DNA of 64,000 bases, taken from a virus. Shown piece by piece: positions 3,580-58,319 of the stretch; positions within the stretch are counted from its first letter, which is position 1; every line of letters begins with the position of its first letter. Made by a program: the position numbers and the translations under genes. The stretch spans positions 1 through 64,000 of the IMG/VR virus record IMGVR_UViG_3300044623_001154. One strand, 5' to 3'. Under the pieces are notes generated by a model. That model saw only the letters and a list, made by a program, of their open reading frames with translations, was not told the origin of the DNA and did not search any database.

Positions 3580-3651
3580 ATGGCGGTAATTGGAATTATA
3601 ATGGTGGTATTATTCATCAAAGGTGTGTTATTCTTAGATAAAAAATTATGA
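3580..3651 (+). CDS. Tiny membrane peptide (23 aa)
   Basis: MAVIGIIMVVLFIKGVLFLDKKL is one hydrophobic helix with a basic tail; the TGA overlaps the next ATG. Supported by the coupling overlap and membrane character only. Confidence 0.45.
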   Translation: MAVIGIIMVVLFIKGVLFLDKKL

Positions 3652-4514
3652 GTTATCCTGAAACATTTAAAAAAGGGTTTATTACTGAGATTGAGAAAGA
3701 ACTCAAAAAATGTGAGATAATCTATAACCCAAACACAAAAGGTATTTGGTTTGTTAACCGAGAAGAAAAATATTGGTACTTAGAATATAAAATAGAAAGT
3801 AACTATCTATGGTGGAGATATGAATTTTTTAATATGTTAAAAACCTTATTTTCTATGCCTGATGAGGTATTTAATGATGTAATCTCTGAGTGGGTGGAAG
3901 ACACCCTAAATTGTAAGGTACTCTCAATCCACCACGTGTATTTTACATCTTCCACATTGGTGGAAGAGACCCTAAATTGTAAGGTACTCAAAATAGATGA
4001 AAGAAATTTCCCCCAAAATAAATTGGTGGAAGACACCCTAAATGGTAAGGTAGTCACAACTTGGTTGACTCCAGCAGAAAAAAATCCTTGGGTGGAAGAA
4101 ACCCTAAATATTAAGGTAGATTCAATGTGTGGTAGAAATGATGATTGGAATGAACAGGTGGAAGAAACACTAATTTGTAAGGTACTCAAAACAATAAGAA
4201 GAGACGGTTTTAAAGAATCTTCGGTGGAAGACACACTAAATTGTAAGGTACTCACAACGGCCCATTTCGAAAGTAAATCCTTGTTCAGGGTGGAAGAAAC
4301 CCTAAATTGTAAGGTACTCAAAACAAATCTAAAAAACACTGCAGATATATATGCGGTGGAAGAGACCCTAAATTGTAAGGTACTCAAAACTAGGTATGAG
4401 CTACAAAACGATGGGATAAAGGTGGAACAGACCCTAAATTGTAAGGTAGTCTCAACACAGAACCATTCATTAAAACAAATTGAATTGGTGGAAGAGACAC
4501 TAAATTTAAAATAA
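3648..4514 (+). CDS. Protein with nine 22-residue repeats (V-E-E/D-T-L-N-C-K-V)
   Basis: 288 aa. Residues 1-82 form a unique domain (W-rich, GIWFVNREEKYWYLEY). From about residue 83 come nine perfect-length 22-residue units plus a truncated tenth. In each unit some 12 residues are conserved (VEETLNCKVLKT) and some 10 are almost unrelated. The first unit is preceded by DVISEW, giving EWVEDTLNCKV, which matches the W-F-E-E-T-x-N-x-K-V C-terminal module of many proteins in this window, so the array seems to be an amplified module. No signal peptide. Function unknown; a binding scaffold is possible. ATGA overlap with the upstream ORF. Confidence 0.85.
   Translation: MSYPETFKKGFITEIEKELKKCEIIYNPNTKGIWFVNREEKYWYLEYKIESNYLWWRYEFFNMLKTLFSMPDEVFNDVISEWVEDTLNCKVLSIHHVYFTSSTLVEETLNCKVLKIDERNFPQNKLVEDTLNGKVVTTWLTPAEKNPWVEETLNIKVDSMCGRNDDWNEQVEETLICKVLKTIRRDGFKESSVEDTLNCKVLTTAHFESKSLFRVEETLNCKVLKTNLKNTADIYAVEETLNCKVLKTRYELQNDGIKVEQTLNCKVVSTQNHSLKQIELVEETLNLK
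3894..4514 (+). repeat. 66-bp in-frame repeat array, nine units plus a partial
   Basis: Each 66-bp unit has about 30-33 bp of conserved DNA (gtggaagasaccctaaattg...) and 33-36 bp of unit-specific DNA. The period is exact and a multiple of three, so plus-strand and one minus-strand frame both stay open. Copies differ by several substitutions in the conserved part. Confidence 0.95.
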
Positions 4515-10551: not shown

Positions 10552-11049
10552 ATGAAAAAAGTGATAAGATTAACAGAATCCGATTTGATGAGGATTGTTA
10601 AACGAGTTATTAAAGAGAGTGATGGTGAGGTTAAAAAAACTGACGCTAAGACAAATCAATATTGGAACCAATTAAAACCTAGATTAAAAGCCTTAGGTTT
10701 TAATTCTAAAGTAGACCATATTGTAAATGAACGTAGTTATTTTAACATAGGTGGATACCCTAGTGTTGATTTTTATAGCGAAGTAATGACACACCCATCA
10801 GGAATTGTTATTACATATCCTGCAGATATGATGGATTATACAGGTGATTATTACCCTAATTTTGTGGAAATCAATGGTTCTAAAAATTGGAATCAATCAT
10901 CACATTTACCTACGTTTGTAGACGGGTCAAGTCCTTGTATTGGTTCTATAATACAAAGTGAGCCTGATTCAGGAAAAGGTTTTAAGGTGTCCTGTGGTGA
11001 TTACATTGTTAAAGTTGTAACTAAAGCAATTAATGACACAAAGAAATAA
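10552..11049 (+). CDS. Leader-peptide protein, MKKVIRLTESDL class (165 aa)
   Basis: Residues 1-23 are the class-B leader (MKKVIRLTESDLMRIVKRVI then KES). Two (I/L)xE sites, LTE9 and IKE22. The mature part (YWNQLKPRLKALGFNSKV..., later SGIVITYPADMMDYTGDYYPNFVEING) is unrecognised; two Cys occur near the end. The leader DNA is nearly identical to that of the 14482 and 18507 genes although the bodies differ. Own promoter and terminator. Confidence 0.87.
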   Translation: MKKVIRLTESDLMRIVKRVIKESDGEVKKTDAKTNQYWNQLKPRLKALGFNSKVDHIVNERSYFNIGGYPSVDFYSEVMTHPSGIVITYPADMMDYTGDYYPNFVEINGSKNWNQSSHLPTFVDGSSPCIGSIIQSEPDSGKGFKVSCGDYIVKVVTKAINDTKK

Positions 11050-15729: not shown

Positions 15730-16041
15730 ATGGAAAAGATTGTTAATAAGTTTTTGGATGGTTACGTTGGGGATAAGGTAGACTGTCGATTAGTTCATAC
15801 ATCTAAAGCGTTTTGGTATAAGTTAAAAGGTAAATCAGGTGTTGGTTTTTACACTATTCGTGTTAGTAAGAAACATGGGGGTTATATTGTGTTTAAGGAC
15901 CAGAATTTATGTAACATGGTTGCTAGTATATTTGACATTTCAACTGAAGATTCGGGTAATTTAATCAGTAAATGGTTTCAGGAAACTTTTAATATTGTTA
16001 AGTTTTCCGATTTATCTCAATTTATGGATAAAAAAGGGTAG
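15730..16041 (+). CDS. Hypothetical protein with C-terminal W-F module (103 aa)
   Basis: No MKxIITE leader. Layout: helical start (EKIVNKFLDGYVGDK), beta domain (FWYKLKGKSGVGFYTIRVSKKHGGYIVF), then ISKWFQETFNIVKFSD, a clear member of the shared C-terminal module. A TAAATTTG box (about 15703-15710) suggests a host-type promoter, unlike the leader genes. Confidence 0.83.
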   Translation: MEKIVNKFLDGYVGDKVDCRLVHTSKAFWYKLKGKSGVGFYTIRVSKKHGGYIVFKDQNLCNMVASIFDISTEDSGNLISKWFQETFNIVKFSDLSQFMDKKG

Positions 16042-17306: not shown

Positions 17307-17678
17307 ATGAAAGTAATAATAACTGAAGCTAGTCTTAAAAATTTATTGGTTAATAAATTGGGTATTGATTTAACGGGTCAGGTTGAAACTATTAAATATG
17401 TTCATCAGTTACCTAAAAAGTATTTTGACTTTATTGGTCCAAAGAAGATTAATGATTGGTTGAATATGTATGGTCCGATGTATCTATTTAGATTACCATA
17501 TAGAAATTTTTTATATCAGAGTCAATCAAACACTTGGACGGAAAGTCATTCAGGTTTACTATTAAGTTATAATGGTAAAACATATACTGATGCTGAATTC
17601 TTGGAACTCTTAGGTATTCCCCCAATGGGAATAACTATTCAAGATATCATTGATACATTTGTTAAAGAAGAAGATTGA
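17307..17678 (+). CDS. Leader-peptide protein, YGPMY family (123 aa)
   Basis: Leader MKVIITEASLKNLLVNKLG runs directly into the family core (GIDLTGQVETI, MYGPMYLFRLP, LGIPPMGITIQDIIDTF). Most similar to the C-terminal half of the upstream fusion, so a tandem duplicate. ATG 17307 is chosen at the leader, one base after the previous stop. Confidence 0.87.
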   Translation: MKVIITEASLKNLLVNKLGIDLTGQVETIKYVHQLPKKYFDFIGPKKINDWLNMYGPMYLFRLPYRNFLYQSQSNTWTESHSGLLLSYNGKTYTDAEFLELLGIPPMGITIQDIIDTFVKEED

Positions 17679-17679
17679 T

Positions 17680-18042
17680 ATGAAAGTAATAATAAGTGAA
17701 TCCAAATATGAGGAAGGTATTTTAAATTATTTAAAAGCCAATTATTACCCTGATTATAATTGGGGTCCCGAACTACATAGTTTTTATAAAGAAGAGGTGG
17801 CGAAATATGGTGGTATTGATTTTTATATTAATGACCAGGTTGGTTATGAATATAGACGTGGATTAAATGTCAGTGTTTTACATCTTTATTTTAGAGTAAC
17901 TCAACCCCTGTATAACTTGTTTGGTTTTAAATGGGTTCCAATATTTAAAACGTGGTTTGAAGAGAACACTGGTCTTAAAGTTAATGAGGTAAGTTTTGTT
18001 GATAATGAAGATTATTCTTCGATGAAAAATATTGAATTTTAA
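17680..18042 (+). CDS. Leader-peptide protein with W-F module (120 aa)
   Basis: Leader MKVIISESKYEEGILNYLK. The central beta part (GGIDFYINDQVGYEYRRGLNVSVLHLYFRV) leads to WVPIFKTWFEENTGLKVNEVSFV, a strong match to the shared C-terminal module. Function unknown; one base after the previous stop. Confidence 0.87.
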   Translation: MKVIISESKYEEGILNYLKANYYPDYNWGPELHSFYKEEVAKYGGIDFYINDQVGYEYRRGLNVSVLHLYFRVTQPLYNLFGFKWVPIFKTWFEENTGLKVNEVSFVDNEDYSSMKNIEF

Positions 18043-20170: not shown

Positions 20171-20196
20171 GCCCCACCATTGAGTGGGGTTTTTTG
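20171..20196 (+). terminator. Rho-independent terminator
   Basis: CCCCAC / GTGGGG stem, six T. Confidence 0.85.
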
Positions 20197-20206
20197 TTTT
20201 ATATTG

Positions 20207-20213
20207 TATTTAT
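20207..20213 (+). promoter_or_regulatory. TATTTAT promoter box (4-nt spacing)
   Basis: Four bases before the ATG at 20218. Confidence 0.65.
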
Positions 20214-20217
20214 AAAT

Positions 20218-20586
20218 ATGAAAATTATAATAACTGAAAATAAACTAAATGAGTTTATAAATAAATTCATTGGTGATTATGTTAAAGATTATAACAGATA
20301 CAAAAATGGTTCTTTTCTTCTTTATGAAGAACCATGGGATGATGATGATTATGCCAATTATGATAGTGTTGTGTTAGAACATGATTCAGAAGATGGTAGA
20401 TTACTTATTAGATATAGTTTGGTAAAAACAATTTCGGACATGTTTGGTTTAAGTCTAACCGATGCTAGAGTTAGAATTAAGGATTGGTTTGAGAATGAAA
20501 ATGGATTGATAGTTAAATTTGTCGAATCAGATAAAATTGCTGGTAAACAATATTTTAATAACGAAGATGAAGATACTAATAACTGA
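20218..20586 (+). CDS. Leader-peptide protein with W-F module (122 aa)
   Basis: Leader MKIIITENKLNEFINKFIG. The acidic, aromatic middle (EEPWDDDDYANYDSVVLEH) precedes a helix and RIKDWFENENGLIVKFVES, the shared C-terminal module. Overlaps the next gene by 20 bp. Function unknown. Confidence 0.86.
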   Translation: MKIIITENKLNEFINKFIGDYVKDYNRYKNGSFLLYEEPWDDDDYANYDSVVLEHDSEDGRLLIRYSLVKTISDMFGLSLTDARVRIKDWFENENGLIVKFVESDKIAGKQYFNNEDEDTNN

Positions 20587-28571: not shown

Positions 28572-28937
28572 ATGAAGTTTAAAGAAATAAAGTATAGTGA
28601 AATTAAGTCAAATATCTATGATAGATTCATTGATATGTTGGTTAAGAACACGTCGTTTTCTGATGTATATGATTATACTAATGGTGAAATGTACGATTTT
28701 GTCTCACATATTAAGTTCCCATTTTATGATGATGGTTATGAATTAAAGTTTAAAAATTCTGAGTCATGGTCAATGAATGTTCCTCCAAGATACCATTTGG
28801 AACAAATGTTAATGGTTGTTGGTGTCGATTCTAATGAGGACCCAAAGATTTCTCAATCCATATATTTAGAATATGTTGATAGACTTGAAATCAAAGTTAA
28901 GGACTTTATAAAACAATTTATGGAATATGAAGGTTAA
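28572..28937 (+). CDS. Hypothetical protein (121 aa)
   Basis: MKFKEIKYSEIKSNIYDRFIDMLVK... a helical start that may be a decayed leader, a beta part (YDDGYELKFKNSESWSM) and a C-terminal helix (LEIKVKDFIKQFMEYEG). Layout resembles the W-module family without the Trp. Overlaps the next gene by 11 bp. Confidence 0.8.
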   Translation: MKFKEIKYSEIKSNIYDRFIDMLVKNTSFSDVYDYTNGEMYDFVSHIKFPFYDDGYELKFKNSESWSMNVPPRYHLEQMLMVVGVDSNEDPKISQSIYLEYVDRLEIKVKDFIKQFMEYEG

Positions 28938-29247
28938 GGTTAATAAAGAAATGTTGAGGAAAGCATCTAATATGGTGTTTGATACTTATTATTCAGATAT
29001 TGATGATATCAATGATTATAATCTTGATAGATTCATGTATTACAGAACTGACGGTAAAATAAAATTACAGGTTAGAGAATACAATGGACTAAAGTATTTG
29101 GCGTTTTATAAACAAGATAGAGATTCTATTCAAAACATGGTACCGATAAGTGATTATATGTTTGATAAATTACTTAAAGAATGGTTCATAAACAAATACA
29201 ACGTCGATATTGATTCTGTGTTATTACCATTTAATAGAAATGAATAG
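28927..29247 (+). CDS. W-F module protein (106 aa)
   Basis: MKVKVNKEMLRKASNMVFDTYY... then a compact beta part (GKIKLQVREYNGLKYLAFYK) and LLKEWFINKYNVDIDSVLLPF, the shared C-terminal module. The start resembles a leader without TE. Function unknown. Overlaps neighbours on both sides. Confidence 0.82.
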   Translation: MKVKVNKEMLRKASNMVFDTYYSDIDDINDYNLDRFMYYRTDGKIKLQVREYNGLKYLAFYKQDRDSIQNMVPISDYMFDKLLKEWFINKYNVDIDSVLLPFNRNE

Positions 29248-50029: not shown

Positions 50030-52153
50030 ATGAATAAATTATCTAGAATTTCGTTAACCATTGGTGTAGTTGGGTTATTATCTTTTTTCTTAATGCACGT
50101 ATTAATTTACACAGAATTAATCTTAGTCACTGAGAATATAATCCATTTTAGTTTTTACACAAAAGGTTTAATCGTATTAAGTTTAATGGTCTTCATTAAT
50201 GAATATTTGAAAAAAAACAAACAAATTGATACTGAATCAAAATATAGTGTAAAATTAACTGAAGTATTAATTTCTCAATCACATAATACTTTGTTTTATG
50301 AAGGTAACACTTCTGAAGGTGCTAAAGTTTTAACTAAAGAAGTATCTGAAACAATGAATACGGATAGATGTTCTATATGGTTATATAATCACGATAAAAC
50401 TTCAATTATATGTGAACAACTATATGTTAAATCAGAAGACACTTGGTACCAAGACATTAAACTAAACAAGAAAGATTTCAAACCATATTTTTTAGCTCTT
50501 TTAATTAACCCTGTAATTGTTGCCAATGATGCCAAAACACATACCGCAACTTCTTGTTTTACTGAAACATATCTAAAACCTCTTGGTATAAAATCTATGT
50601 TGGATGTTCCAATTATTTTTAAGGGGGAAGTCATTGGTGTTATATGTATTGAAAGTTTAACTCCTCGTGAGTGGAAAAAATCTGAACTAGAGTTTTCTCA
50701 ATTATTATCGTCTACTTACTCATTCTCATGTTGGGTTAAAGAAAGTAATGATTTAACGAGAAGAAATATAGAAACTGAAAAATTCATAAATGAAGCGGCG
50801 ATTGTTTCAATTACTGACAACAAAGGAAAAATAACTCACGTAAACTCTAAATTTGAAGAGGTATCGGGTTGGAAATTAAAAGATGTGAAGGGTAAAGACC
50901 ATAGTATCGTTAATTCCGATTCACAACCTGACGGATATTGGGGTAAGATGTATGACAAAGTATTAAAAGGTAAAATATGGAATGATGTTGTTACTAATAA
51001 AACAAAAACAGGTGAACTGTATTATGTTGACACATACATCAAAGCATTATTTGACAAAGAACAAAAATTAGAAGGTTTTTCATCAATTAGACAAGATGTT
51101 ACCGAACTGAAAAAAAAGGAACTTGAAATTCGTAATAGAATGAACGCAATTAATAAATCTAATGCAGTGATTGAGTTTGATTTAGATGGAAATATTCTTT
51201 TTGCTAATGAATTGTTTTTAAATACTATGGGTTATTCATCACAGGATGAAATAGTCGGAAAACACCATAGTATGTTTATCTCAGATGATGACTTAAATAG
51301 TGATGAGTATCGTGTTTTTTGGGAAAAATTAAAAGAAGGTATATTATTCTCAGGGGAAATTAATAGAACTAAAAAAGATGGGACCTTAGTGTATTTGCAG
51401 GCGACTTATAATCCAATTGTTGGTATAGATGGTAAAATTTATCGTGTTATGAAAATAGCCACAGATATTACCAACTCTCACGAACAAAAGAAAGAAATTG
51501 AAAAGAAAAACACGTATTTAGAACACGCGGCAAAGATATTAAGACACGATATGCACTCAGGGATTAATACTTACATCCCAAGAGGTGTTAACTCATTAGA
51601 AAGAAGATTAACTCAAGAAGATATTACTAATCTTAAAATCGAAGCCCCACTTAAAATGATTAAGGAAGGTCTTAAACACTCACAAAAAGTTTATAAAGGA
51701 GTTTACGAATTTACCAATCTTGTAAAGAAAGATGTTGTATTAAACAAAACCGAATGTGATTTAAAAATGATTCTAACTGACTACTTATTATCAACGGCAT
51801 ATATTAGTCAAGTTATTATTGACGAATTACCAACTATTGAGGTAAACGAACCTCTATTCTGTACCGCAGTTGACAACTTGATTAGAAATGGTTTAAAGTA
51901 TAATGATTCGGACACTAAATTTGTTAAAATTTATTTTGAAGGTGATACTCTGAATATACAAGATAATGGTCGAGGGATTAACCAAAAAGATTTTGATGAG
52001 TTATCAAAACCTTACACTAGAAAAGAAGGTCAAAAAGAATCAGGAACTGGTTTGGGTCTAAATATTTGTGTGGCGATTTTGGAAGAACATGGATTTAGTA
52101 TTACCTGTGAGAAAAATGAAACAGGTACAAAAATGAAAATAAAAATAAAATAA
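50030..52153 (+). CDS. Membrane GAF-PAS-PAS sensor histidine kinase (707 aa)
   Basis: Two N-terminal membrane helices (about 6-27 and 40-58), GAF domain (about 75-230), PAS 1 (about 245-350, ITDNKGKITHVNSKFEEVSGW), PAS 2 (about 370-480), a phospho-acceptor helix AAKILRHDMHSGINTY with His near 505, and an ATPase domain with NLIRNGLKYND, LNIQDNGRGIN and GTGLGLNICVAIL. All catalytic boxes are intact. Followed by a receiver gene and a coiled-coil membrane protein as an apparent operon. Very unusual for a phage. Confidence 0.95.
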   Translation: MNKLSRISLTIGVVGLLSFFLMHVLIYTELILVTENIIHFSFYTKGLIVLSLMVFINEYLKKNKQIDTESKYSVKLTEVLISQSHNTLFYEGNTSEGAKVLTKEVSETMNTDRCSIWLYNHDKTSIICEQLYVKSEDTWYQDIKLNKKDFKPYFLALLINPVIVANDAKTHTATSCFTETYLKPLGIKSMLDVPIIFKGEVIGVICIESLTPREWKKSELEFSQLLSSTYSFSCWVKESNDLTRRNIETEKFINEAAIVSITDNKGKITHVNSKFEEVSGWKLKDVKGKDHSIVNSDSQPDGYWGKMYDKVLKGKIWNDVVTNKTKTGELYYVDTYIKALFDKEQKLEGFSSIRQDVTELKKKELEIRNRMNAINKSNAVIEFDLDGNILFANELFLNTMGYSSQDEIVGKHHSMFISDDDLNSDEYRVFWEKLKEGILFSGEINRTKKDGTLVYLQATYNPIVGIDGKIYRVMKIATDITNSHEQKKEIEKKNTYLEHAAKILRHDMHSGINTYIPRGVNSLERRLTQEDITNLKIEAPLKMIKEGLKHSQKVYKGVYEFTNLVKKDVVLNKTECDLKMILTDYLLSTAYISQVIIDELPTIEVNEPLFCTAVDNLIRNGLKYNDSDTKFVKIYFEGDTLNIQDNGRGINQKDFDELSKPYTRKEGQKESGTGLGLNICVAILEEHGFSITCEKNETGTKMKIKIK

Positions 52154-52172
52154 TATAAAAAACGAAAAAAAA

Positions 52173-52610
52173 ATGATTGATTCAATTTTATTAGTGGATG
52201 ATGAGGATTTATTCCATTTAGTATTTGAAGATGCGTGTTCATTACTTGACATAAGTTTATCTTTAAACGCATTAAATAGTTCTGATGAAGCCGCAAAACT
52301 ATTTGAAAAATGGTTCCAAGAAGGGGACAATTATGATAAACCAGAATGTGTATTTGTTGATTTAAACATTATTGGTAGTTCTTTTGATGGTATTGAGTTA
52401 ATCAGAAAAATAAATTTTGAGTTTGGTAATCACGTTGTAATTGGGATTATATCATCTTCAAACGAAGCCGAAGAACAAGCAAAAGCGGTTCAAGCGGGTG
52501 CACAATTTTGGATTATTAAATCTGATGACATTGAACCTCGTTTAGAAGAGTTCAGAAAAGATTATGAAGGTTATAAAAACAGAACATTACCATTTAAAGT
52601 TTACAAATGA
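52173..52610 (+). CDS. Response regulator receiver (145 aa)
   Basis: Receiver with DD at residues 9-10, phospho-acceptor D63 (VFVDLNIIGSSFDGIE) and Lys116 (WIIKSDD). No output domain. The spacing around the Asp is longer than usual. Lies 19 bp after the kinase gene and is its probable partner. ATGA overlap with the next gene. Confidence 0.92.
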   Translation: MIDSILLVDDEDLFHLVFEDACSLLDISLSLNALNSSDEAAKLFEKWFQEGDNYDKPECVFVDLNIIGSSFDGIELIRKINFEFGNHVVIGIISSSNEAEEQAKAVQAGAQFWIIKSDDIEPRLEEFRKDYEGYKNRTLPFKVYK

Positions 52611-53584: not shown

Positions 53585-55456
53585 ATGAGTAAAATTATTG
53601 GTATTGATTTAGGAACCACAAATTCATGTGTGGCGGTTATGGAAAATGGGGAACCTGTGGTAATCCCTAACAGTGAAGGTAAAAGAACAACACCTTCAGT
53701 TGTTGGATATATTAACGAATCTGAAAGAAAGGTAGGTGACCCCGCAAAAAGACAATCTGTAACTAACCCCACTAAAACGGTATATTCTATTAAACGATTT
53801 ATGGGTACTACATTTGACGAATCTAAGTCAGAAATAGGGAAAGTACCATATGAAGTGATAAAAGGTAAGAATAACTCACCTAGAGTGAAAATTGAGAGTA
53901 AAGATTATTCTCCACAGGAGATTTCCGCAACTATTCTACAAAAAATGAAAAAAACTGCCGAAGATTACTTGGGAACAACAGTTACTGAAGCGGTTATTAC
54001 AGTTCCCGCTCATTTTAACGACGCTCAACGTCAGGCAACCAAAGAAGCTGGCGAAATTGCGGGTTTAACTGTAAGACGTATCATCAACGAACCAACCGCG
54101 GCAGCATTGGCTTACGGTCTTGATAAGAAAAACCAAGATATGTTAGTTGTAGTATTCGATTGCGGTGGTGGAACCCATGATGTTTCAATTCTTGAGTTAG
54201 GTGATGGTGTATTTGAAGTATTATCTACAGATGGTGACACACATTTAGGTGGGGATGACTTTGACCAAACAATTATCAACTTTTTAATTGATGAGTTTAA
54301 GAAAGAGAACGGTGTTGACCCAAGTAAAGACCCAATGGCTCTTCAGAGATTAAAAGAGGCGGCTGAGAAAGCGAAAATTGAGTTGTCATCATCATCATCA
54401 ACTGAAATTAACTTACCATACTTAATCCCTGTTGATGGAATTCCAAAACATTTAGTGGTTTCTTTAACAAAATCTAAATTTGAACAACTTGTTGATAATT
54501 TAGTTAAGAGAACAATTGAACCGTGTAAAAATGCGTTAAAAAACGCTGGTATTAAAATAACTGACATTGATGAAATTATTTTAGTTGGTGGTACAACAAG
54601 AATTCCCGCTATTCAGGATGCAGTTAAGAGTTTCTTCGGTAAAGAACCTTCAAAAGGGGTAAATCCTGATGAGGTAGTTGCGTTAGGTGCCGCTATCCAA
54701 GGTGGTGTGTTAGCTGGTGACGTTAAAGACGTACTTTTATTAGATGTTACCCCATTATCATTAGGTATTGAAACTATGGGTGGTATATTCACTAAATTAA
54801 TAGAGTCAAACACAACAATTCCAACTAAAAAGTCACAAGTATTCTCAACGGCAGTTGATAATCAACCAAGTGTTGATATCCATGTACTACAAGGTGAGAG
54901 AGCCATGGCTAGCGACAATAAAACCATTGGTAAATTCCAATTAACTGATGTCCCACCATCACAAAGAGGGGTCCCACAGATAGAAGTGACCTTTGACATA
55001 GATGCTAACGGTATCATTAACGTATCAGCATTGGATAAAGGAACTAACAAAGTACAATCAATTAAAATTGAAGCGTCTTCAGGTTTATCTAAAGAAGAAA
55101 TTGAAAGAATGAAGGCCGACGCTGAATTAAACGCCGAGTCTGACCAAAAAGCAAGAGAAGAGGTTGAATTAATCAATAAGGCTGACACGACAATCTTCCA
55201 ATCAGAAAAGTCATTAAAAGATTTAGATGATAAAATTTCTGAAGACGATAAAAAAGATATTAATGAACTTATTACTAGTTTGAAGGAGTCAGTTGAGAAA
55301 AAAGAAATAACTATTTTAGATTCTAAGATTGAATCTATTAATACTAAGTTCCAATCAATCAGTGAGAACCTTTATAATAAATCTAATCAAGAACCTACTA
55401 ATGAATCATATGACACAAACGATGTTTCTGATGTAGAATTTGAAGAAGTGAAATAG
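53585..55456 (+). CDS. dnaK: Hsp70 chaperone DnaK
   Basis: 623 aa. N-terminal ATPase: [47 protein letters not shown], then [27 protein letters not shown] (Cys and His replace the usual Leu and Phe), [13 protein letters not shown]. Substrate domain: [50 protein letters not shown], and an acidic tail ending VEFEEVK. Complete and probably active; no DnaJ or GrpE in the window, so it would use those of the host. Host-like codon use. Confidence 0.97.
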
Positions 55457-57302: not shown

Positions 57303-58319
57303 ATGAGCAAAGTAATAAGATTAACCGAGTCCGATTTGGTTAGACTAGTTAAAAAAGTTATATCCGAACAACCCAAAATTAGTAATCCCAAAATTAGTAA
57401 TGATTGGATGACCAATTTGAAAAATTCTGGTAAAAATCAAAGTGTATGTCCCATAGGGTTTAGACAAATGACACAACAAGAAATAAGTTCTTACTCTAAA
57501 AAATTGGTTAAACCTTGGTCTAATACAACTGACGGGACGGGTGACTATATATATAAAAACGCGAATACTATATGTAAAAGTACAGCACCTAAAGGTGAAG
57601 CTAAAAAGCTTCCAAATCCCTTTCAAGGTTTAACATTGGAACAAGTTGCGAATGGATTTAGAGATGCTATGAGTGGTGTTGGTGGAAGCATTGCACAAAT
57701 TGTTATATCACTCTTTGGTGGTCACGTAATAAATATGGTTGCTTGGGGATTATTAGTTGCTTATGATATTTATTCTTGGGTACAAAAAGGGGTCGTTAAT
57801 TGGTTTAACCTTCTTAACGATTTAATTTGGTTATTGTTGGCAGGTGTTGGTGGTAAAATAATGGGGGCTCTTAAACCTATATTGAAAGGTGAAACTAAAT
57901 TAATAAACATCTTCACAAAAGCGTCTAAAACAACTTGGTGGAGTCATCTTAAACTGTTTTTAACCAAAATTAGTAGTTACGGTTCTAAAGTAATATTGCA
58001 AATTAGACAAGCGATAAGTGCGATAATAAATAAAGTTCCTACATTAAAAAGTCTGTTAAACCCATTATTGGGGATAATTAATCGTGTTGGTGGTGTTTTA
58101 ACCAGAATTGAACAAACTTTTGTGGAATTTAGTAAAATTAAACCTGTTATGAAAGTTGCTAAAGTGGTTAAACCTATGGTTAAACCTGTTACGACAGTTG
58201 CTAAAGTGCTTAAACCTATGGTTAAACCTGTTGTAAAAGTTGCCAAAGAATACGTCAAAGGAGATATTCAAAGTAGGGTGGTAAATACTGGATTAAATGC
58301 TGGATTTGGTAAAACATAG
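57303..58319 (+). CDS. Leader-tagged protein with membrane helices and repeats (338 aa)
   Basis: Class-B leader (MSKVIRLTESDLVRLVKKVI then SEQ). A Cys-containing segment (QSVCPIGFRQMTQQE), then hydrophobic helices (SIAQIVISLFGGHVINMVAWGLLVAYDIY and LLNDLIWLLLAGVGGKIMGAL) and amphipathic basic helices with repeats KVVKPMVKPVTTVAKVLKPM. Such a packaged, membrane-penetrating protein would suit DNA delivery or pore formation, as pilot proteins do; inference from composition. Confidence 0.86.
   Translation: MSKVIRLTESDLVRLVKKVISEQPKISNPKISNDWMTNLKNSGKNQSVCPIGFRQMTQQEISSYSKKLVKPWSNTTDGTGDYIYKNANTICKSTAPKGEAKKLPNPFQGLTLEQVANGFRDAMSGVGGSIAQIVISLFGGHVINMVAWGLLVAYDIYSWVQKGVVNWFNLLNDLIWLLLAGVGGKIMGALKPILKGETKLINIFTKASKTTWWSHLKLFLTKISSYGSKVILQIRQAISAIINKVPTLKSLLNPLLGIINRVGGVLTRIEQTFVEFSKIKPVMKVAKVVKPMVKPVTTVAKVLKPMVKPVVKVAKEYVKGDIQSRVVNTGLNAGFGKT

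Follow-up and report, generated by a model that had tools for sequence, protein, structure and literature searches.

To our knowledge, Cas1 integrases and related enzymes are the only ones known to carry out programmed capture of short DNA of a fixed length. Diversity-generating retroelements provide phage protein genes with programmed variability at the 3' end, which they achieve by adenine mutagenesis of a template repeat. Among CRISPR arrays, the type II-C and VI-B arrays of Flavobacteriia, as found in F. columnare, have 36-bp repeats (PMC8092290). Arrays are also reported on viral genomes that lack adaptation genes, with some targets being host genes, both in huge phages (PMC7162821) and as mini-arrays, which carry the repeat of the host and target rival viruses (PMC11656645). 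Phage genomes also harbor CRISPR-like solitary repeat units known as Racr (PMC10651486).

We analyzed a 64,000-bp stretch of DNA (the window) that is part of a 72,977-bp IMG/VR record and contains a protein gene ending in an array of repeats and variable halves. We consider it likely that this phage gene has been lengthened at its 3' side by a CRISPR-like capture of host DNA that operates without Cas1, and that the resulting array is translated. As in CRISPR arrays of types II-C and VI-B, there is a repeat/spacer geometry with unrelated spacers of exact and constant length, and the leader-distal end of the repeat carries ACAAC/GTTGT. Leader-proximal addition with repeat duplication, distal decay, a conserved order of units, and protospacers with exact borders appear to be further common features, and a weak motif adjacent to the protospacers may be another. 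The phage repeat may resemble type VI-B repeats. In contrast to CRISPR arrays, the phage array resides within a translated gene and passes a frame filter, its spacers traced so far derive from the host of the phage and not from invaders, and its repeat is absent from host genomes. With the arrays of huge phages and the mini-arrays, the locus shares its location on a viral genome, the apparent lack of adaptation genes and some host-gene targets. Unlike in mini-arrays, however, the repeat belongs to the phage gene itself, forming its 3' end, and is not present in the hosts. The locus resembles Racr in placing CRISPR-like repeat units in a phage genome, but there is no host CRISPR repeat to mimic and the many translated units hold captured host DNA. 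Programmed 3'-end variability of a phage protein gene is common to the array gene and diversity-generating retroelements, with the array gene varying by insertion of host DNA units instead of mutagenesis. No description of such a system was found in the published papers searched.

Within the ORF 3648-4514, the repeats begin at 3893 and recur with a period of 66 bp, forming nine full units and a truncated tenth (Table 1). This confirms the initial annotation of the window, which had described nine 66-bp units with a conserved and a variable part inside a protein gene. In register, each unit consists of the 36-bp repeat GGTGGAAGAGACCCTAAATTGTAAGGTACTCAAAAC (G plus 35 bp; 12 residues) followed by a 30-bp variable half. 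Identity at an offset of 22 residues was above chance in this ORF (z = 18). Tandem Repeats Finder did not detect the array in the window because half of each unit is unrelated to its counterparts.

Table 1. Features of the array gene, with positions in the window and the sources of the variable halves.
Feature	Position	Strand	Description	Basis
Array gene	3648..4514	+	N-terminal domain and translated repeat/spacer array, 288 aa	Single ORF; relatives in IMG/VR
N-terminal domain, residues 1-82	3648..3893	+	Leader position of the array	AlphaFold2; 27-row alignment
Repeat 1, 36 bp, leader-proximal	3893..3928	+	5' part encodes end of the domain's last helix	
Variable half 1	3929..3958	+	Source host genome G343, 2/30 mismatches, antisense to exonuclease III-like gene	
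Repeat 2	3959..3994	+		
Variable half 2	3995..4024	+	Source not found; absent from all other IMG/VR contigs	
Repeat 3	4025..4060	+		
Variable half 3	4061..4090	+	Source host genome G372, 2 mismatches, sense, in frame	
Repeat 4	4091..4126	+		
Variable half 4	4127..4156	+	Source not found; absent from all other IMG/VR contigs	
Repeat 5	4157..4192	+		
Variable half 5	4193..4222	+	Source host genome G372, exact 30/30, antisense to 204-codon ORF	
Repeat 6	4223..4258	+		
Variable half 6	4259..4288	+	Source host genome G372, 1 mismatch, antisense to phytoene-desaturase-like gene	
Repeat 7	4289..4324	+		
Variable half 7	4325..4354	+	Source not found	
Repeat 8	4355..4390	+		
Variable half 8	4391..4420	+	Same sequence as third unit in related phage L008	
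Repeat 9	4421..4456	+		
Variable half 9	4457..4486	+	Source not found	
Truncated tenth repeat, terminal	4487..4514	+	Holds stop codon	

AlphaFold2 modeled residues 1-94 with a pLDDT of 93.6. The predicted domain consists of a helix, four strands and two helices, and its last helix terminates within the first repeat of the model. The initial annotation was correct that the first unit joins a W-F-E-E-T C-terminal module, on which the array is anchored. In the whole-protein model, the array part reached a pLDDT of about 38 compared to about 80 for the domain, and because of this low confidence the array tail is probably disordered. On this negative prediction, the proposal of a folded modular binding protein finds no support. 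PDB fold searches with the domain and with the full model gave no match, and searches of Rfam, Pfam, PHROGs and NCBIfam with the array gene gave no credible match.

The window proteins encoded at 15730-16041, 17650-18042, 20194-20586 and 28927-29247 and many proteins of relatives have the W-[FV]-E-E...V module at their C-terminus but lack an array. In a clustering of proteins from 29 related loci, 134 fell into one family, and arrays are present in only some of them. The window has further peculiarities. Otherwise unrelated proteins starting at 10552, 12545, 14482, 15271, 18507 and 57303 have the N-terminal peptide MKKVIRLTES[DQ]L.R.VK[RK]VI.E in common, which looks like a targeting or packaging tag, and further proteins start with MKIIITE. 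The gene at 57303-58319, which encodes a lysine- and valine-rich C-terminus, contains a 42-bp tandem repeat (58138-58248). Unusually for a phage, the window encodes a PAS/GAF histidine kinase-like protein with a receiver-like protein next to it (50030-52610), the receiver-like protein coming second, and a separate response regulator-like protein (2625-2984).

Further IMG/VR contigs, measuring up to 294 kb, also carry the domain and its array, often with several array genes per phage. Our collected set holds about 50 array genes from about 35 large-phage records, with 272 units and 170 distinct variable halves. INPHARED contained no instance of the domain with an array, and the domain was not found in the bacterial genome contigs searched. 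A 240-kb relative (G016) possesses T4-type portal, capsid, prohead protease, terminase, baseplate and gp32-like genes, so the array carriers are large tailed phages. As a clue to host range, the window encodes a DnaK (53585-55456) whose closest relatives, at 74% identity, are in freshwater Flavobacteriales bins. The array genes belong to large viruses of Bacteroidota. On the reverse strand of L168 (G020, a 293,850-bp phage record) we observed a divergent in-frame array of 22-residue units with the repeat VENTLQMKV[TI]NT, which was also found at about L218:1098 and suggests a second branch of the system.

ORF-based detection could bias any result on reading frame. We therefore scanned the DNA of the related phage loci with a repeat weight matrix and without requiring an ORF. 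All spacings between the 205 neighboring repeat pairs were multiples of 3 and 194 were exactly 66 bp, which bears out the CRISPR-like rhythm noticed initially. The accompanying remark that unit length does not drift holds for the window but not for the relatives, where a few units measure 63, 69 or 72 bp, all of them in frame. In the same scan, the scores of a shuffled window all stayed far below the threshold. A single in-frame stop was present among the 205 pairs. As a random host 30-mer is open in the array frame with P = 0.60, this indicates overwhelming selection for openness: a unit persists only if it leaves the reading frame open. These data contradict the idea that an ordinary non-coding CRISPR array has been mistaken for a gene and the ORF is spurious. 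CRISPR arrays translated in error are a known artefact (PMC7673337), and the other two forward frames of the repeat contain stops, so that any ORF would use the array frame. Yet the upstream part of the gene is a conserved, well-folded domain and cas genes were not found in the searches described below, and we regard a spurious ORF as very improbable.

The array also carries a codon-position signature. In halves common to several phages, the variable codons comprised 19 synonymous and 15 nonsynonymous changes, whereas 74% nonsynonymous changes were expected (p = 2e-4). This pattern hints modestly at a role of the peptide as such, though with so small a sample (15 nonsynonymous) the bias may partly reflect few events, and we give it little weight. 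A specific binding role is hard to reconcile with purifying selection on peptides of random frame. Conservation of order and sequence with normal synonymous patterns, which the initial annotation had linked to an ordinary old repeat protein, was seen only for old distal units common to close relatives.

Several lines of evidence show that the variable halves are independent 30-bp inserts and not mutated duplicates. Pairwise distances between halves were either 1-6 differences or 12 and more, as between random sequences, with one exceptional pair at 9. In 24 neighboring pairs with identical 36-bp repeats, the halves differed by a mean Hamming distance of 22.3/30 and a minimum of 18. Mutation is excluded as the cause, because it cannot saturate 30 bp and yet spare the adjoining 36 bp. 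The array thus did not arise, as initially presumed, by amplifying one module whose halves then diversified.

To search for sources, we compared the halves with 399 genomes of the order to which the DnaK-matched bin belongs and then with the 12 best hosts, and fetched the matching sites. The 399-genome search already returned full-length matches at 30/30 and 29/30. A chromosomal source at 0-4 mismatches was found for 53 of the 170 distinct halves, 8 of them exact, in Flavobacteriales-type bacteria. Hence 31% or more of the distinct halves were copied from genes on host chromosomes, and the initial suggestion to check the halves against genome databases for acquisition gave a positive answer. 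Within the window, sources were located for four of nine halves, and three of these lie in a single genome (G372). Identity between half and source was about 94% over exactly 30 bp and dropped to chance level beyond both borders; per position it ranged from 0.85 to 1.0 within the 30 bp and from 0.09 to 0.36 immediately outside on both sides. When 60 halves were reversed, with the 53 matching ones taken first, 0/12 hosts matched, whereas forward queries with 77 halves matched 11/12 hosts. No source was found for the other 117 halves, possibly because their exact hosts are missing from the genome collection. Mismatches fell on the third codon position of the host gene in 59/96 cases, which points to host divergence, the sampled genome being a relative of the true donor.

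These matches refute the reading as an ordinary repeat protein that arose through amplification of its units and divergence of their variable halves under selection. Full translation with a codon-position signature and attachment of the array to a folded domain would fit such a protein. Exact 30-bp host copies with sharp borders, the bimodal half distances, unrelated halves beside identical repeats and the lack of a confident fold in the predicted array structure do not, and this reading retains next to no plausibility.

The sources are ordinary genes and, judged from their translations, include those for SecA, RsmH, ribosomal protein L13, GmhA, ParB, a DEAD-box helicase, an M28 peptidase and a phytoene desaturase. 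Sense sources numbered 29 (16/3/10 by frame, 16 being in the array frame) and antisense sources 23 (11/6/6), the expected fractions in the same genes being.27/.12/.12 and.15/.18/.16, respectively. Strand and frame of the sources agree with a capture that is random and a subsequent filter for open frames. About two thirds of the sources are out of frame or antisense, and we therefore rejected both copying from host proteins at the peptide level and specific capture of in-frame coding fragments. Other origins were likewise discarded. Related phage DNA totaling 1.56 Mb, in which the 240-kb relative was covered almost completely, gave no self-match above shuffled or reversed controls. None of 64 halves matched INPHARED, and three window halves had no match in IMG/VR outside related arrays. 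On the leader-facing (domain) side, the sources display a weak Y-T-T motif with Y at -3 (41/53) and T at both -2 and -1, A occurring at -2 in just 5 sources. The information content at -3 (0.265 bits) and -2 (0.233 bits) exceeded the 95% null maximum of 0.223, the signal being weak overall, and no position on the opposite, downstream side was above the null (n = 53).

The arrays appear to be polar. Mismatches of the repeat to the array consensus were 1.6, 1.3, 2.6, 4.1 and 5.3 from 5' to 3', and identical neighboring repeats occupied unit positions 0 and 1 in 21/24 cases. The order of units common to several arrays was concordant in 323/323 pairs and discordant in none. Host matches were found for fractions of.37,.39 and.17 of the halves in the 5', middle and 3' third, and distal matches were also poorer. 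Comparison of relatives thus argues that new units adjoin the N-terminal domain while old ones decay distally. One array (L055) joins units from two different array genes of relatives (L011 and L013), so recombination also exchanges entire units. Across 20 diverged genes, the repeat codons GTG, GAA, AAT, AAG and ACA were invariant wherever the residue is shared while other codons varied, and codon identity was 73% in the repeat compared to 56% in the domain. These patterns argue that the repeat is constrained as DNA.

We found Cas1 in 0/20 phage records, which are partly fragments, and in 0/12 best-matching hosts and 1/24 hosts, whose assemblies may be incomplete and in many cases are bins. 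The same search detected Cas1 in 49/399 genomes of the order. The phage records searched lacked a TnpB/Cas12f domain, and a Pfam scan of about 180 proteins of the 240-kb phage gave no Cas family among the matches listed. PADLOC gave one weak Cas9 hit, which probably corresponds to the HNH nuclease that Pfam detected. The array repeat pattern was absent from 24 host genomes at up to 3 mismatches, the fetched phage loci contained no other CRISPR-type array, and gene neighborhoods of the arrays had no common integrase-like gene nearby. One host genome (G129, L314:11891 onward) carries a Cas1-linked CRISPR array with 35 copies of a 47-bp II-C-type repeat, which is unrelated to the phage repeat except for the GTTGT/ACAAC ends. 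Such absences from fragmentary records and bins are evidence and not proof. Unlike CRISPR systems, the phage system thus comes without a detected Cas1 or effector, and no conserved RNA hairpin was found in its repeat. We do not file the locus as a CRISPR array because Cas1, non-coding character and repeat hairpin all fail, although its acquisition works like CRISPR adaptation.

The array might still be a phage-borne CRISPR array that produces guide RNA against the host chromosome for host takeover, with an effector that is unrecognised or borrowed and an ORF whose sole role is to keep the transcript under translation and stable. Repeats of 36 bp, spacers of 30 bp, polarity, host protospacers and a motif beside them are what such an array would look like; spacers come from both strands, as in DNA targeting, and huge phages can have arrays without cas1 or cas2 and with some spacers against host genes (PMC7162821). 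However, the missing Cas1, Cas12f/TnpB and other Cas proteins in the phage records and, among the matches listed, in the 240-kb phage, hosts without the repeat and a repeat without a conserved hairpin all speak against it. A guide would also need neither an open frame in all but one pair nor a synonymous bias. We hold guide RNA to be unlikely, and on the frame and substitution patterns we favour a putative diversifying protein tail.

Because no capture enzyme was found, we infer the capture mechanism from the insertion scars. The pieces of the host chromosome are 30 bp long, come from either strand and any frame and lie beside the short pyrimidine-rich motif that faces the leader, and each new unit brings a fresh copy of the 36-bp repeat. 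A putative integrase with a 30-bp ruler, distinct from Cas1, would cut at the junction between the tryptophan codon and the repeat (between TGG and GTGGAAGAG). The repeat would be duplicated at the cut and the end of the domain's last helix restored: as this helix ends within the first repeat, insertion of a repeat-plus-30 unit after the tryptophan codon should rebuild the domain. With less certainty, the product may be used as a protein composed of the N-terminal domain and a disordered tail, whose peptides are renewed from random host sequence. The tail would perhaps bind or decoy changing host or defence proteins.

Alternatively, the array might be a sink or by-product, in which an integrase inserts pieces of the host chromosome degraded during infection, and in which the phage either tolerates the tail or is protected by it because it takes up such fragments. 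The seemingly random strand and frame of the sources would agree with this, as would Campylobacter phages whose Cas4-like protein is reported to be associated with host-derived spacers (PMC4804229). Use rather than tolerance is suggested by repeat DNA that has stayed conserved over the long term in genes with 20 diverged domains, by several array genes per genome and by the substitution bias in shared halves, which makes a mere sink doubtful. On balance we lean towards a Cas1-independent capture that writes 30-bp pieces of host DNA into translated genes and thereby yields a continually renewed protein tail.

The locus displays scars of capture without a detected Cas1, in a protein gene, with the host of the virus as the donor. 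If confirmed, this implies a ruler integrase that has not been described and would represent a new route by which viruses make protein sequence from host DNA. Single array genes would also link phage and host exactly, and the arrays would serve as a natural recorder of the hosts that a phage has met.
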